Source of the DNA: Herbidospora daliensis
GTDB lineage: Bacteria; Actinomycetota; Actinomycetes; Streptosporangiales; Streptosporangiaceae
Length of the DNA: 64,000 bases
Reading direction: 5' to 3'
NCBI RefSeq assembly: GCF_001570585.1
Contig: NZ_BBXF01000001.1
Coordinates: 923,691 to 987,690, forward strand
The position numbers and the translations under genes were made by a program. Shown here one piece after another: positions 38,206 to 42,754 of this stretch; within the stretch, counting starts at the first letter, position 1, and each line of letters starts with the position of its first letter. The notes below the pieces were generated by a model. It was given only the letters and a program-made list of their open reading frames with translations. It was not told where the DNA came from and ran no database searches.

Positions 38206-39162
38206 TCAGTGCTGCCGGGTGTTACCCGCGAGCGGCCACAGGCGGTCGACCTCGGCGTTGAGGGTGGCCCCGATCAGCACCGCCAGGGCGGTGATGTAGA
38301 GCCAGAGCAGCACCGCGATGGGCGCGGCCAGCGAGCCGTAGATGGACAGCGGGTCGAACCAGGCGGCCAGCACCTCGCGCAGCACGGCCGCGCAGATGAT
38401 CCAGATCACCAGGGCCAGCAGCGCGCCGGGCACCTCGCGCCACCATCGGGTCCGCATCGGCACGCTCACGTGGTAGAGCAGCGTGAGCATGAGCACCGAG
38501 CCGGCCACCACCACGGGCCAGTAGAAGATCGAGATGAGCGGTTCGTAGTCGGGCAGGGCGGTGGCCAGCAGGGTCGGCCCGACGACCAGGATCGGCATGA
38601 CGACCAGGCCGATCAGCAGGGCCGCGAGGTAGAGGCCGAAGCTGAAGATCCGGGTGCGGATGATGCCCCGGGTCTCGCCCATGCCGTAGGCGATGGAGAT
38701 CAGGTCGACGTACACGAAGAGAGCACGGGAGCCCGACCACAACGAGAGCAGGAAGCCGACCGAGATCAGCGAGACCTCGCCGCCGTTGAAGACGTTGTCG
38801 ATCAGCGGCTCGACCACACGCTGGACGGCGTCGGGGGTGAACAGCAGGTCGGCGTGCTCGATCACCGACGCCTTGATGTCGGTGATCGTGCCGGGGCCGA
38901 GCAGCCCGGAGAGGTGACCGAGGACACCCAGCAGCCCGAGCACGAACGGCGGCAGCGACAGCAGGGCGAAGAACGCCGCCTCGCCCGCGAGGCCGGTGAC
39001 GCGGTAGTTGACCCCGGCCATCGTGGTGGCCTTGACCAGCGCCCAGAAGCCGCTGCCGGCGAAGCGCTCCATCCCGGCGCGGGCGCGCGCCATGCCGGCG
39101 CGGGACTGGTGCCCGAACCAGTGGCGGCGGGACCGGCGCCGGGGCGCGTTCGCTGAGGTCAT
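38206..39162 (-). CDS. YihY/BrkB-family membrane protein
   Basis: About 318 aa from ATG 39162 (an ATG at 39174 is equally possible; neither has a clear ribosome site). After a basic N-terminus come six hydrophobic spans with the family signatures GLAGEAAFFALLSLPPFVLGLLG, SLWSGSRALFVYVDLISIAYG and WLYITALAVLIGATLNAEVDR. YihY-family proteins are inner-membrane proteins of unclear function, formerly called ribonuclease BN. It lies back-to-back with the sulfite reductase operon and ends 14 bp before the ZTP riboswitch. Confidence 0.82.
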   Translation of the reverse strand: MTSANAPRRRSRRHWFGHQSRAGMARARAGMERFAGSGFWALVKATTMAGVNYRVTGLAGEAAFFALLSLPPFVLGLLGVLGHLSGLLGPGTITDIKASVIEHADLLFTPDAVQRVVEPLIDNVFNGGEVSLISVGFLLSLWSGSRALFVYVDLISIAYGMGETRGIIRTRIFSFGLYLAALLIGLVVMPILVVGPTLLATALPDYEPLISIFYWPVVVAGSVLMLTLLYHVSVPMRTRWWREVPGALLALVIWIICAAVLREVLAAWFDPLSIYGSLAAPIAVLLWLYITALAVLIGATLNAEVDRLWPLAGNTRQH

Positions 39163-39192
39163 CGGCGTCAACATTACGTGTCTCGCGAAGGG

Positions 39193-39207
39193 GTCCACAC
39201 TGTGGAC
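39193..39207. promoter_or_regulatory. 15-bp palindrome before the sulfite reductase promoter
   Basis: GTCCACA-C-TGTGGAC is perfectly symmetric. It ends 6 bp before the -35 hexamer of the leader-peptide promoter and 31 bp from the yihY start, so a regulator bound here could act on either gene. No known consensus is claimed. Confidence 0.45.
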
Positions 39208-39213
39208 GCAAAC

Positions 39214-39242
39214 TTGGACATCAAGTACCCGCAAGGTATTGT
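39214..39242 (+). promoter_or_regulatory. Housekeeping-sigma promoter of the sulfate-assimilation operon
   Basis: TTGGAC (39214-39219), 17 nt, TATTGT (39237-39242). Optimal spacing for the principal sigma factor. The distance to the leader-peptide ATG at 39250 is 7 nt, so transcription should start at that A, making the leader ORF leaderless. Confidence 0.65.
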
Positions 39243-39249
39243 TACGGAC

Positions 39250-39333
39250 ATGCCAGTGGACCCGATGCTCGTCGTGCGCCGCCACGTCGATCTCCAGCGC
39301 GTCCACAGCGCCATCTGTATCGACGCCCGTTGA
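39250..39333 (+). CDS. 27-aa Cys-containing leader peptide
   Basis: The frame reads MPVDPMLVVRRHVDL, then QRVHSAICIDAR and TGA at 39331. The RRHVDLQRV...AIC core is that of small actinobacterial leader peptides found ahead of sulfur-metabolism operons. The single Cys codon (TGT, 39316-39318) lies three bases before the 5' arm of a terminator. A ribosome stalled there when cysteinyl-tRNA is short would mask that arm and allow read-through into the sulfite reductase gene. The ATG is probably the first base of the transcript. Confidence 0.75.
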   Translation: MPVDPMLVVRRHVDLQRVHSAICIDAR

Positions 39334-39380
39334 TCGCCGCCCCTTCTTTCTGTTAAGGGCGCGTGACAGGCGTCTTTTTT
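39322..39380 (+). terminator. Attenuator between leader peptide and sulfite reductase
   Basis: GACGCC (39322-39327), inside the last codons of the leader peptide, pairs with GGCGTC (39369-39374), followed directly by six T. Inside it CGCCGCCCCTT (39336-39346) can pair with AAGGGCGCG with two bulges. This is an intrinsic terminator whose 5' arm overlaps the leader ORF, the layout of ribosome-mediated attenuation. Confidence 0.7.
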
Positions 39381-39454
39381 CATGCCCCCGCACTCAGCGC
39401 CGAGGCGGGAGGAAAAGCCTGGACGCGCGCGACCACCACTTGGAAAGGTCCCGC

Positions 39455-41137
39455 ATGAGCACCCCGGCCCGCCCGGCGAACCGCCACCACAAGCGCCCTC
39501 GCGGCGAAGGTCAGTGGGCTCTCGGCTATCGCGAGCCCCTGAACAAGAACGAGGAGAACAAGAAGAACGACGACGGCCTCAACGTCCGTCAGCGGATCAT
39601 CGACGTCTACTCCAAGCGCGGCTTCGACTCGATCGACCCCGCCGACCTGCGCGGCCGCATGCGCTGGTACGGCCTCTACACGCAGCGCAAGCCCGGGATC
39701 GACGGCGGCAAGACCGCGATCCTGGAGCCCGAGGAGCTCGACGACCGCTACTTCATGCTCCGCATCCGCATCGACGGCGGCCAGCTCGACCTCAACCAGC
39801 TGCGGGTCATCGCGGGCATCTCCAACGACTTCGGCCGGGGCACCGCCGACATCACCGACCGGCAGAACGTCCAGCTGCACTGGGTCGAGATCGAGTCGGT
39901 CCCGGAGATCTGGGAGCGCCTCGAAGCGGTCGGCCTGTCCACGACCGAGGCGTGCGGCGACACCCCGCGCGTGATCCTGGGCTGCCCCCTGGCGGGCGTC
40001 GACGCCGACGAGGTGATCGACGGGCGCGAGCAGATCCGCGAGGTGTACGACCGGTTCATCGGCGACAAGGCGTTCTCCAACCTGCCCCGCAAGTTCAAGT
40101 CGGCGATCAGCGGCTGCGGCGCCCACTGCACCGTCCACGAGATCAACGACGTGGCGTTCGTGGGCGTGGTGAACGAGGCCGGCGAGGCCGGGTTCGACGT
40201 CTGGGTGGGCGGCGGCCTGTCGACCAACCCGATGATCGGCAAGCGGCTCGGCGCGTTCGTCCGGCCCGACCAGGTGGGCGACGTCTACGGCGGCGTGATC
40301 GGCATCTTCCGCGACTACGGCTACCGGCGGCTGCGCCACCGGGCCCGCATCAAGTTCCTGGTGAACGACTGGGGCGCCGAGAAGTTCCGGCAGATCCTCC
40401 AGGACGAATACCTGAACTACGCGCTGCCCGACGGCCCCGCCCCCGAGCTGGCCGACGAGACCCGGCGCGACCACGTCGGCGTCCGCCGCCAGAAGGACGG
40501 GAAGTTCTACGTCGGCTTCGCGCCCAAGGTCGGCCGGGTCGACGGCGACACCCTGGCGAAGATCGCCGACCTGGCCGAGGCCCACGGGTCGAACCGGGTC
40601 GCGATGACGGTCGAGCAGAAGATGGTCGTGCTCGACGTGCCCGAAGACCGGGTCGAGTCGCTCGTCGACGGCCTCGACGCGATCGGCCTGAAGGTGCGCC
40701 CCTCGACGTTCCGGCGCCAGACGATGGCCTGCACCGGCATCGAGTACTGCAAGCTCGCGATCGTCGAGACCAAGGCGACCGCGACGACGCTGATCCACGA
40801 GCTGGAGAACCGGCTGCCCGACTTCGAGCACCCCCTCACGATCAACGTGAACGGCTGCCCGAATTCCTGCGCCCGCATCCAGGTCGCCGACATCGGCCTG
40901 AAGGGCCAGCTCGTCGTCAACGAGGCGGGCGAGCAGGTCGAGGGCTTCCAGATCCACCTGGGCGGCTCCCTGGGCGCCACCCCGGGCTTCGGCCGCAAGG
41001 TCCGCGGCCTGAAGACCACCGCGGAAGACTTGCCCGACTACGTCGAGCGGGTGGCCTCCAACTACGCCAAGCAGCGCAGCGACGACGAGTCCTTCGCCGC
41101 CTGGGTCCAGCGGGCCGACGAAGCGGACCTGAAATGA
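39455..41137 (+). CDS. sir: Ferredoxin-dependent assimilatory sulfite reductase
   Basis: 560 aa from ATG 39455. Two ferrodoxin-like repeats flank the sirohaem/4Fe-4S cysteines in ACTGIEYCKLA (C-X5-C) and NGCPNSCAR (C-X3-C). RGTADITDRQNVQLHW and GVGGGLS-like DVWVGGGLSTNP complete the nitrite/sulfite reductase family. The neighbours cysH and a sirohydrochlorin chelatase decide for sulfite over nitrite. It reduces sulfite to sulfide with six electrons. Expression should be set by the cysteine leader-peptide attenuator upstream. Its stop overlaps the next small gene (ATGA). Confidence 0.9.
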   Translation: MSTPARPANRHHKRPRGEGQWALGYREPLNKNEENKKNDDGLNVRQRIIDVYSKRGFDSIDPADLRGRMRWYGLYTQRKPGIDGGKTAILEPEELDDRYFMLRIRIDGGQLDLNQLRVIAGISNDFGRGTADITDRQNVQLHWVEIESVPEIWERLEAVGLSTTEACGDTPRVILGCPLAGVDADEVIDGREQIREVYDRFIGDKAFSNLPRKFKSAISGCGAHCTVHEINDVAFVGVVNEAGEAGFDVWVGGGLSTNPMIGKRLGAFVRPDQVGDVYGGVIGIFRDYGYRRLRHRARIKFLVNDWGAEKFRQILQDEYLNYALPDGPAPELADETRRDHVGVRRQKDGKFYVGFAPKVGRVDGDTLAKIADLAEAHGSNRVAMTVEQKMVVLDVPEDRVESLVDGLDAIGLKVRPSTFRRQTMACTGIEYCKLAIVETKATATTLIHELENRLPDFEHPLTINVNGCPNSCARIQVADIGLKGQLVVNEAGEQVEGFQIHLGGSLGATPGFGRKVRGLKTTAEDLPDYVERVASNYAKQRSDDESFAAWVQRADEADLK

Positions 41138-41286
41138 GCGAGCGGGCCGCTCCGTACTACTGCCCGTATTGCGGTGAAGAAGATCTCGAACCGTACGTCT
41201 CCGACGAGGAGCCGTACGGATGGTACTGCCGGAGCTGCGCCCGGGCCTTCCGGGTGAAGTTCCTGGGGATAGGCGTTCGATCGTGA
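41134..41286 (+). CDS. 50-aa zinc-ribbon protein between sir and cysH
   Basis: MSERAAPYYCPYCGEEDL begins a 50-residue protein with two Cys pairs, CPYC and CRSC, 18 residues apart, a zinc-ribbon layout. ATG 41134 overlaps the sir stop by ATGA, and its own stop overlaps a possible GTG of cysH, so it is translated with both. The acidic middle and basic end suggest protein binding; it may help sulfite reductase or hand over electrons or metal. Function unknown. Confidence 0.7.
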   Translation: MSERAAPYYCPYCGEEDLEPYVSDEEPYGWYCRSCARAFRVKFLGIGVRS

Positions 41287-41306
41287 CCCCCCGTGAGGAG
41301 AGCGTG

Positions 41307-42035
41307 ATGACCCTGGTGGACATCGAGGTTGAGCTAGAGCGCCGACGCGGCGTGCTCGACCTCCAGAGCATCGTCGAGTCGGCGGCCGAGTTCCTCGAGG
41401 ACGCCCCCGCCCGAGAGATCATCCGCTGGGCGGCGGCGACCTTCGGCGACCGCATGTGTCTCACCTCCTCGATGTCCGACGCGCTGCTGATCGACCTGGT
41501 GAGCCGGGTCAAGCCGGGCGTCGACGTGCTGTTCATCGACACCGGCTACCACTTCGCCGAGACGATCGGCACCCGCGACGCGGTCGAGGCCGTCTACGAC
41601 GTCAACCTGATCAACATCACCCCGTCGCGGACCGTCGCCGAGCAGGACCGCGACCTCGGGCCGCGCCTGCACGGCCGCAACCCCGACCTGTGCTGCTTCC
41701 TGCGCAAGGTCGAGCCGCTGAACCGGGCGCTGGAGCCCTACCTGGCGTGGATCTCTGGCATCCGCCGCGACGAGTCGCCGACCCGGACCGGCACGAAGGT
41801 CGTCGAGTGGGACGCCAAGCGCCAGATGGTCAAGGTCAACCCGATCGCGCGGTGGACCCAGGAGGACGTCGACAACTACATCGCCGACAACGGGGTCCTG
41901 ATCAACCCGCTCCACTACGACAACTACCCCTCGATCGGCTGCGCCCCCTGCACCCGCAGGGTCGCCGACGGCGAAGACGCGCGGTCGGGCCGCTGGGCCG
42001 GGCTGGGCAAGATCGAGTGCGGTATCCACCTTTGA
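41307..42035 (+). CDS. cysH: Adenylylsulfate (APS/PAPS) reductase
   Basis: 242 aa from ATG 41307 with AGGAG 6 nt upstream (GTG at 41283, overlapping the previous stop, is an alternative). The substrate loop is SSMSDALLIDLVSRV, and DVLFIDTGYHF follows. The iron-sulfur cysteines LCCFLRKVEPL and SIGCAPCTR mark the 4Fe-4S-containing class that normally uses APS. The C-terminal ECGIHL carries the catalytic Cys. It makes sulfite for the reductase encoded upstream. Confidence 0.92.
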   Translation: MTLVDIEVELERRRGVLDLQSIVESAAEFLEDAPAREIIRWAAATFGDRMCLTSSMSDALLIDLVSRVKPGVDVLFIDTGYHFAETIGTRDAVEAVYDVNLINITPSRTVAEQDRDLGPRLHGRNPDLCCFLRKVEPLNRALEPYLAWISGIRRDESPTRTGTKVVEWDAKRQMVKVNPIARWTQEDVDNYIADNGVLINPLHYDNYPSIGCAPCTRRVADGEDARSGRWAGLGKIECGIHL

Positions 42036-42754
42036 CGCCTCTGGTGGCCGTGGCGCACGGGTCCCGCGACCCGCGCGCCGCCGCCGTGGCCGAGGCGCTG
42101 CTGCACCGGGTCAGGCTGGCGCGGCCCGGCCTCGACGTCCGGGTCAGCTACCTCGACCACGTGAAGCCGGCGCTGACCGAGGCGCTGGCCCCGCTCGCCG
42201 AGGCGGTCGTGGTGCCGCTGCTGCTGACGGCGGCCTACCACAGCAAGGTCGACATCCCGGGGGCGCTGGCCGGGGTCGGCGCCCGGGTCGAGGTCAGCCC
42301 CACGCTGGGCCCCGACCCGCTGCTGACGGCCGCCCTGGAGCGCCGCCTGGCCGAGGCCGGGACCGTGGTCGGCGACCCCGGCACGGCCGTGGTGCTGGTG
42401 TCGGCCGGGTCGAGCGACCCGACCGCCAACGCGACCGTCCGGCGCATCGCCCGCGACTGGGCCCGCTCGCGGCCGTGGTGGGCGGTCACGACCGCGTACG
42501 CCAGCGCGTCGGGCCCCCGTCCGGCCGAGGCGGTGGCGATGCTGCGCGCGGCCGGGGCGCCCCGCGTGGTGGTCGCGCCCTACCTGCTTGCGCCGGGCTT
42601 CTTCGCCGACAAGGTGGCCCGGGAGGCCCTGGCGGCCGGGGCCGACCTGGTGGCCGACAGCCTGGGACCCGCCCCGGAACTGGTGCGGATCGTGCTCGAC
42701 CGCTACGACTCAGTCGATCTCGCAGCGGACCGGTTCGAGCGTCTCCCGGCCTGA
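42032..42754 (+). CDS. Sirohydrochlorin chelatase (CbiX/SirB-like)
   Basis: 240 aa, a tandem of two CbiX-like halves. The N-terminal half has VAHGSRDPRA and TAAYHSKVDIP, which hold the catalytic His pair; the second half has VSAGSSDPTAN in the same place and is probably structural. It inserts iron into sirohydrochlorin to give sirohaem for the sulfite reductase. The TTG start at 42032 overlaps the cysH stop (TTGA). Its last 45 bp overlap a convergent gene. Confidence 0.85.
   Translation: MTPLVAVAHGSRDPRAAAVAEALLHRVRLARPGLDVRVSYLDHVKPALTEALAPLAEAVVVPLLLTAAYHSKVDIPGALAGVGARVEVSPTLGPDPLLTAALERRLAEAGTVVGDPGTAVVLVSAGSSDPTANATVRRIARDWARSRPWWAVTTAYASASGPRPAEAVAMLRAAGAPRVVVAPYLLAPGFFADKVAREALAAGADLVADSLGPAPELVRIVLDRYDSVDLAADRFERLPA

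Follow-up and report, generated by a model that had tools for sequence, protein, structure and literature searches.

Polycysteine leaders of mycobacteria are reportedly the subject of Canestrari 2020. That study is cited in passages of PMC13236596, PMC9094748 and PMC9031893. Leaderless Cys-rich small ORFs have been described before cysA2, Rv0485 and nirA (Shell 2015, PMC4633059), Cys leader peptides without terminators were predicted before the cys operons of mycobacteria and other organisms (PMC1262725), and several Cys genes of M. smegmatis are placed under translation attenuation in parts of PMC13236596. Leaderless Cys leaders are already known, and are not in themselves new. The mycobacterial polycysteine leaders are leaderless ORFs before sulfur or Cys genes, as is the leader described here, judging by its promoter spacing and operon, but they carry a run of Cys codons where ours has a single one. 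The uORFC-8-2 motif of Rhodobacterales, as presented in sections of PMC8632094, also combines Cys codons in a short ORF with a hairpin and a U run, and attenuation by Cys-tRNA has been proposed for it, but its Cys codons are in tandem, UGC is dominant, and it belongs to Alphaproteobacteria, where it lies upstream of cysS. The trpL1, ilvL and leuL2 leaders of Streptomyces lividans resemble ours in being leaderless ORFs followed by a proposed Rho-independent terminator, but they concern other amino acids; the sections of the article at hand (PMC8079986) name no Cys-dependent leader, though metL has three Cys. Neither a preference for UGU nor a single-Cys form was found in the literature searched, whose coverage omits most subscription papers.

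The leader studied here lies in a 64-kb stretch of DNA from the soil actinomycete Herbidospora daliensis (the window; features are on its forward strand unless indicated). It is an ORF of 27 codons (39250-39333, stop codon TGA at 39331-39333) that translates to MPVDPMLVVRRHVDLQRVHSAICIDAR. A first-pass annotation of the window had proposed that a promoter of the form TTGGAC-N17-TATTGT adjoins its ATG, and each of these elements is in place: 17 nt separate the -35 element TTGGAC (39214-39219) from the -10 element TATTGT (39237-39242), and 7 nt separate the latter from the ATG at 39250. From the position of the -10 element, transcription is predicted to start at 39249/39250. A promoter scan returned 1 site for 0.1 (sd 0.4) expected, reading the -35 element one base later (TGGACA, 16-nt spacer). 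We gathered 115 leaders preceding the same reductase, of which 109 are unique (6 duplicates removed), 106 from Streptosporangiaceae and 3 from other families of the class (L022, L023, L045); elsewhere, L065, L111 and L038-L040 were left out as duplicates and no motif was obtained from L106 and L291. A start codon with the hexamer [TCG]ANNNT ending 6-8 nt upstream was found in 105 of the 109 reductase leaders (L084, L094, L103 and L199 being the exceptions), in a loose test that allows several chances per leader, the hexamer occurring at 4.3% of upstream positions (282/6540). With the strict form TANNNT, counted in 105 leaders whose start codon lies 9-11 codons ahead of the motif, the gap is 7 nt in 67 and 6 nt in 9, and 23 matches are summed over 78 other gaps. 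The hexamer TTGGAC stands 17 nt before the -10 element in 71/105 reductase leaders; none of the tried -35 forms was detected in 30/105. In sections of PMC8079986, the -10 element of S. lividans is given as TAnnnT, at a mean of 6.3 nt from the start, with 17% of transcripts leaderless. The spacing in the reductase leaders agrees with these values, which favours a leaderless start; the layout is, on this comparison, conserved among reductase leaders, and transcription itself would begin at the start codon.

A palindrome, GTCCACACTGTGGAC (39193-39207), perfect except for one central mismatch, lies directly upstream of the -35 element, and sequence resembling it was noted by eye in several relatives. 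A genome-wide role for it was rejected: matches numbered 5 and 6, versus 6 and 6 in a reversed-pattern control. Its other mismatch-free genomic site adjoins an amidase-like ORF (named by eye), and the idea was dropped.

The genes downstream bear out the position before sulfite reductase that had been assigned to the leader. A putative ribosome binding site (GGAAAGG, 39442-39448) precedes an assimilatory sulfite/nitrite reductase of the NirA type (39455-41137; Pfam PF01077, PF03460), whose top-scoring NCBIfam models (NF007125, NF007126) stay below cut-off. Because all its matches are below the cut-offs, NCBIfam leaves sulfite and nitrite reductase unseparated; sulfite is the substrate suggested by the neighbouring cysH and chelatase genes. 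The cysH gene, for a (phospho)adenylyl-sulfate reductase (41307-42035, from a presumed start codon, the stretch scanned being 41247-42032), matches NF002537 with 260 bits for a cut-off of 154, and PF01507. It is followed by a CbiX-type chelatase (42032-42754; PF01903, NCBIfam matches below cut-off), which probably serves siroheme. Between the reductase and cysH, an ORF of 50 aa (41134-41286) has four Cys in two CxxC pairs (CPYC, CRSC) and matches neither Pfam nor NCBIfam at E 1e-5; it possibly encodes a small protein for this operon, of the zinc-ribbon or electron-transfer kind. The upstream genes, on the opposite strand, encode a BrkB/YihY membrane protein and a serine hydroxymethyltransferase.

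On its profile matches, the leader peptide is a member of a known family and a relative of the mycobacterial Ms4527A leader. It matches NCBIfam NF042934 over its full length with 36 bits (cut-off 27), and stays below the cut-off of 45 both for NF042936, the Ms4527A leader (27.4 bits), and for NF042933 (15.9 bits). NCBIfam calls NF042934 a "putative leader peptide" (cis_reg_atten), in an entry without a mechanism. Three matches above cut-off exist in the H. daliensis genome, the second lying upstream of a rhodanese-type sulfurtransferase and the third upstream of a 2-oxoacid:acceptor oxidoreductase, typed via its homologue at L099. Among 60 relatives, 58 yield a match at E 0.01 and 52 one above the cut-off. 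At E 0.001, 235/250 Streptosporangiaceae genomes match the reductase-leader peptide; in the wider phylum at least 16/296 genomes match at E 1e-4 (H. daliensis included), all of the same class, a lower bound because at most 29 candidates were scored per genome.

Behind other members of the family we found, besides the sulfurtransferase, cysteine synthase, PAPS reductase, taurine dioxygenase and two sodium:dicarboxylate-type symporters, all from nine downstream proteins scanned as hand-picked single examples, not as a census. At leader L119 an RNA helicase ORF lies 545 nt off, with no visible tie to sulfur. The alpha subunit of the 2-oxoacid:acceptor oxidoreductase stands behind the Cys leaders L003 (H. 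daliensis), L066, L097, L099, L109 and L124, L099 alone having been scanned and the other genes recognised by a shared N-terminus. Sodium:dicarboxylate-type symporters stand behind L028, L031, L052, L110, L043, L050, L054 and L114 (L028 and L043 scanned, the rest assigned by a similar N-terminus), and may be cystine carriers. The Ms4527A-type leaders, whose hosts, taken from the family model, are presumably Mycobacterium, are also Cys leaders before the same reductase (30/30 loci by tblastn with the reductase of the window), and they share an RRH(V/I)D(L/F)xRV core and a TGT at the last motif position (30/30). They differ in having several Cys codons, in lacking the stem that follows the Cys codon in H. 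daliensis, and in their action, reported in sections of PMC13236596 to be on translation. The mycobacterial precedent that had been invoked for this locus consequently holds for the peptide, which belongs to a related family, and fails for the terminator.

The conserved part of the peptide, RRHVDLQRVHSAIC, is encoded at 39277-39318. Among 74 distinct sequences of reductase leaders, pN/pS is 0.148 over the 13 codons leading up to the Cys, 0.50 over the preceding 6 and 0.92 over the 4 post-Cys codons; the wider leader set gives a higher 0.54 for the same 13 codons (113 sequences), because its subfamilies differ. Asp at -9 and Arg at -6 and -13 occur in 186/186 tabulated leaders, partly as a consequence of how these were found: searching with peptide profiles inflates the measured conservation of the peptide. 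These values, also new here, suggest that the 13 residues ahead of the Cys are under constraint at the peptide level and that the nascent chain takes part. Attenuators that use runs of codons are not known to conserve the rest of their residues. In the motif, the first Arg codon (39277-39279) is CGC in H. daliensis and CGA in 73/109 reductase leaders; CGA at this place often creates a second, upstream GACGC in the ORF, which could compete for the 3' arm of the terminator.

The motif ends in the only Cys codon of the leader, TGT (39316-39318), the putative stall codon. The motif-final Cys is encoded by TGT in 253/255 unique leaders (the others being L228 and L282) and in 216/218 distinct motif sequences. 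By comparison, TGT makes up 11/142 Cys codons in ORFs of the window and 57/749 in ORFs of the leader loci, backgrounds in which filtering of ORFs for high third-position G+C lowers TGT and overlapping loci were kept; the unfiltered share is 15/345 in the reductase genes downstream of the 109 leaders, counted up to the end of each locus, and the six genes around the leader have 1 TGT in 20 Cys codons. Further upstream Cys codons in the same leaders are TGC 104 times and TGT 63 times, and in Ms4527A-type leaders the codon preceding the motif-final TGT is often TGC. Another 42 loci, which overlap the main set and are not independent of it, have TGT in 41, the remaining one (L330) being cut by the end of the locus. 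None of this selected for the synonym: the leaders were searched for with peptide models or with a DNA pattern that leaves out the Cys codon. We rejected two simple accounts of the preference: the bases adjoining UGU vary, which speaks against a flanking RNA motif, and the other conserved codons mostly have G or C at the third position, which speaks against a plain effect of composition. A or T is enriched at the third position of Arg -13, Arg -6 and Leu -8 in the reductase set.

The first-pass annotation had remarked on a single Cys instead of a run. There is indeed one Cys codon in this leader, but it is not exceptional in this: where a start could be assigned (105 reductase leaders), the whole ORF holds a lone Cys in 76, two in 28 and three in 1, and the usual state before the reductase is a single Cys. 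The genome has 57 tRNA matches, all within the loci examined, with a single tRNA-Cys gene, of anticodon GCA, and UGU is therefore read by wobble. Such decoding would be slower, and would be relevant under Cys limitation. Wobble decoding of UGU might also report sulfur status through the thiolation of tRNA-Cys. Given the near-invariance of TGT and the conservation of the preceding residues, the sensor probably comprises more than a single codon. The near-invariant UGU at the motif-final Cys is, from these comparisons, a new feature.

One codon (ATC) separates the TGT from GACGCC (39322-39327), the 5' arm of the predicted terminator, which thus lies within the leader ORF. Its 3' arm, GGCGTC (39369-39374), is followed by a T6 tract (39375-39380), such a tract not being shared by all reductase leaders, and the stem encloses an inner hairpin (39339-39360, GCCC 39339-39342 with GGGC 39357-39360). 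The terminator-like element overlapping the ORF, and the three bases between its 5' arm and the single Cys codon, are as the first-pass annotation had them, and comparison adds that the stem covaries. We took one representative per post-Cys sequence type (n=41) and scored the best stem of the 13 nt post-Cys with the downstream region: the native mean is 18.66, versus 15.95 (sd 0.40) with partners permuted, none of 500 permutations scoring as high, and 14.21 for shuffled sequences. Permutation among kin keeps some phylogenetic signal, and other segments of the leader were therefore used as a yardstick. Among 12 segments of 13 nt, ten differ from their permuted mean by between -0.38 and +0.64, a segment overlapping the arm exceeds it by +1.90, and the post-Cys arm itself by +2.7. 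Arms that are altered and yet paired include AACGCC/GGCGTT (L070) and AACGTCGG/CCGACGTT (L205) and, with a T tract, GCGCCG/CGGCGC followed by TTTTTT (L207) and GCCCCG/CGGGGC followed by TTTTT (L211). In alignment A1, made of 47 of 87 types picked mainly for showing the arm pair (the similar L129 and L186 were left out), the basal helix is paired in every lettered cell, which follows partly from the choice of sequences; A1 adds one double change and G-U forms, and its whole-structure covariation score was reached by 0/500 shuffles. The inner hairpin is paired in 95.1% of the cells of A1; as a covarying element it was rejected as weak, 57/400 permutations scoring as high.

Two weaker pairings were detected by permutations that are not phylogeny-free: positions -3 to +10 of the motif with the downstream region (17.21 vs 16.16 permuted, +1.05, 0/200), and the N-terminal part of the ORF with the motif tail (16.78 vs 15.23 permuted, 0/400). 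Both may belong to a structure that competes with the terminator, though an ordinary antiterminator of the classical kind was not adopted on signals of this strength. Folding and these permutations mark a possible hairpin in the leader ORF (39256-39306, GTGGAC 39256-39261 with GTCCAC 39301-39306). A second possible hairpin follows the terminator at about 39385-39412 (CCCCCGC ... GCGGGAGG), with a similar pattern in 35/109 reductase leaders.

How general the terminator is depends on the set of leaders. Under a fixed-arm rule, the arms occur together with 4 or more T in 8 nt in 55 of the 109 reductase leaders and with fewer T in 21, and 33 show neither pattern; under a best-stem rule, at least 5 T are present in 47, 4 in 9, 3 in 17 and at most 2 in 36. 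In 121 leaders outside the reductase set, 9 of whose loci have a reductase behind them as well (L072, L113 and seven from the phylum search), the stem scores 14.10 natively, 13.82 shuffled and 13.63 permuted (1/100 as high), and at least 4 T occur in 2 alone. This signal is slight, and the post-Cys stem was rejected as a general trait of NF042934 leaders. In 28 unique Ms4527A-type leaders no post-Cys stem was found (native 11.00, shuffled 12.95, 93/100 permutations at least as high). Also new, on these alignments, is a covarying terminator arm immediately after the Cys codon in the reductase leaders, nearly all of which come from one actinomycete family.

Predictions on the single sequence are mixed. 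A simple terminator scan found 0 terminators at the leader for 0.7 expected; it allows loops of 3-8 nt, too short for a stem with another hairpin inside. A search of 38900-39600 against Rfam returned nothing but one sub-threshold lncRNA match on the opposite strand, and the stability of the fold is unremarkable (z -1.02, 29/200 shuffles at least as stable). When the RNA is ended at 39385, the stem has a predicted probability of about 0.9 without a ribosome and 0 with a ribosome at the Cys codon (A site on UGU, assumed footprint 39298-39328); the 5' arm of the terminator is likewise blocked when the ribosome is on the stop codon. A transcript extended to 39500 takes a different equilibrium fold from which the terminator is absent. 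The shorter RNA would be the relevant one during transcription, yet the fold of the longer one is a weakness of the terminator model.

A leader ORF in which a codon for the pathway product overlaps a predicted terminator, the arrangement expected of an attenuator, is what sequence and stem covariation indicate here. We think it likely that a ribosome-mediated transcription attenuator controls the sulfite reductase operon. This reading draws on the ORF, the promoter spacing, the family, the near-invariant UGU, the stem covariation, the content of the operon and the single tRNA-Cys. Transcription would begin at the ATG or one base earlier, and the first ribosome would load on a leaderless mRNA. 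The conserved RxHVDLxRVxSAx would then occupy the upper exit tunnel while the single UGU reaches the A site. With charged tRNA-Cys plentiful, the ribosome would pass UGU, terminate 12 nt later at UGA and depart, leaving GACGCC (39322-39327) to pair with GGCGUC (39369-39374) before U6, and transcription would end. With charged tRNA-Cys scarce, it would stall at UGU and cover GACGCC; the basal stem would be blocked, and RNA polymerase would read through into the genes for the reductase, CysH and the chelatase. UGU, wobble-read by the sole tRNA-Cys (GCA), together with the conserved nascent chain, would render one codon sensitive enough. Because the 5' arm would be covered just as well by a ribosome that lingers on the stop codon, the off-state needs prompt release. 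Against the attenuator stands that just 55/109 reductase leaders combine a GACGCC-type stem with at least 4 T in 8 nt. The attenuation proposed by the first-pass annotation remains the most likely mechanism and is, overall, partly supported; read-through upon scarcity of Cys-tRNA would be its consequence.

The absence of a clear T tract from about half of the reductase leaders leaves room for other outputs of a stalled ribosome. It is compatible with translation attenuation as reported for mycobacteria, in which the stalled ribosome would free the ribosome binding site of the reductase and the hairpin would be no working terminator. The kinship with mycobacterial leaders, and the statement of this mechanism for Cys genes of M. 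smegmatis in sections of PMC13236596, speak for it, as does the folding to 39500, where the reductase start codon is predicted to be unpaired with a probability of 0.21 when free and 0.49 with the ribosome at Cys; being less paired in the latter state, it may add a translational component to control. We nevertheless regard it as unlikely as the main mechanism: the predicted pairing of the ribosome binding site itself is nearly constant (unpaired 0.46 free, 0.47 stalled), the covarying post-Cys stem with its T6 precedes this site by about 60 nt, and the Ms4527A-type leaders have no such stem. Leaders devoid of a T tract would also suit Rho-dependent attenuation, suggested in 2005 for mycobacterial cys operons (in sections of PMC1262725), where the stretch after the leader, untranslated unless a ribosome stalls, would let Rho terminate, the stem being secondary. 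The T6 behind the stem in H. daliensis and the covariation of the stem across genera make this very unlikely.

A different question is what makes the ribosome stall. The single Cys codon alone might set stalling and the peptide sequence be irrelevant, a sub-version of the transcription attenuator whose probability overlaps with it. Cys is the sole residue with an obvious metabolic link, and a second or third Cys is present in 29/105 reductase leaders; but the low pN/pS before the Cys relative to the flanking codons, and the Asp and Arg residues common to all tabulated leaders (partly due to the search method), lead us to consider this rather doubtful. As for a chance ORF and a chance hairpin near an ordinary promoter, the unremarkable fold stability and the blank terminator scan are what one would then see, yet the score above the curated family cut-off, the placement kept in 109 unique leaders and the stem covariation make it hardly credible, and conservation already contradicts it.

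Beyond the transcription attenuator of this operon, NF042934 and Ms4527A-type leaders might tentatively be united in one class of Cys sensors tuned by the nascent chain, an idea we hold to be possible, though short of probable: a near-invariant rare UGU would be the trigger, RxHVDLxRVxSAx would sensitise the ribosome, and the outputs would be specific to lineages, a terminator in Streptosporangiaceae and translation in mycobacteria. If this is true, one codon can replace a run of codons as an amino-acid sensor, given a slow synonym and the help of the nascent chain, and one conserved peptide sensor would have been coupled to two outputs, termination and translation, in different lineages. The synonymous change of UGU to UGC would then be a simple test for sulfur operons across Streptosporangiaceae, where nearly all genomes have a matching leader, and beyond.
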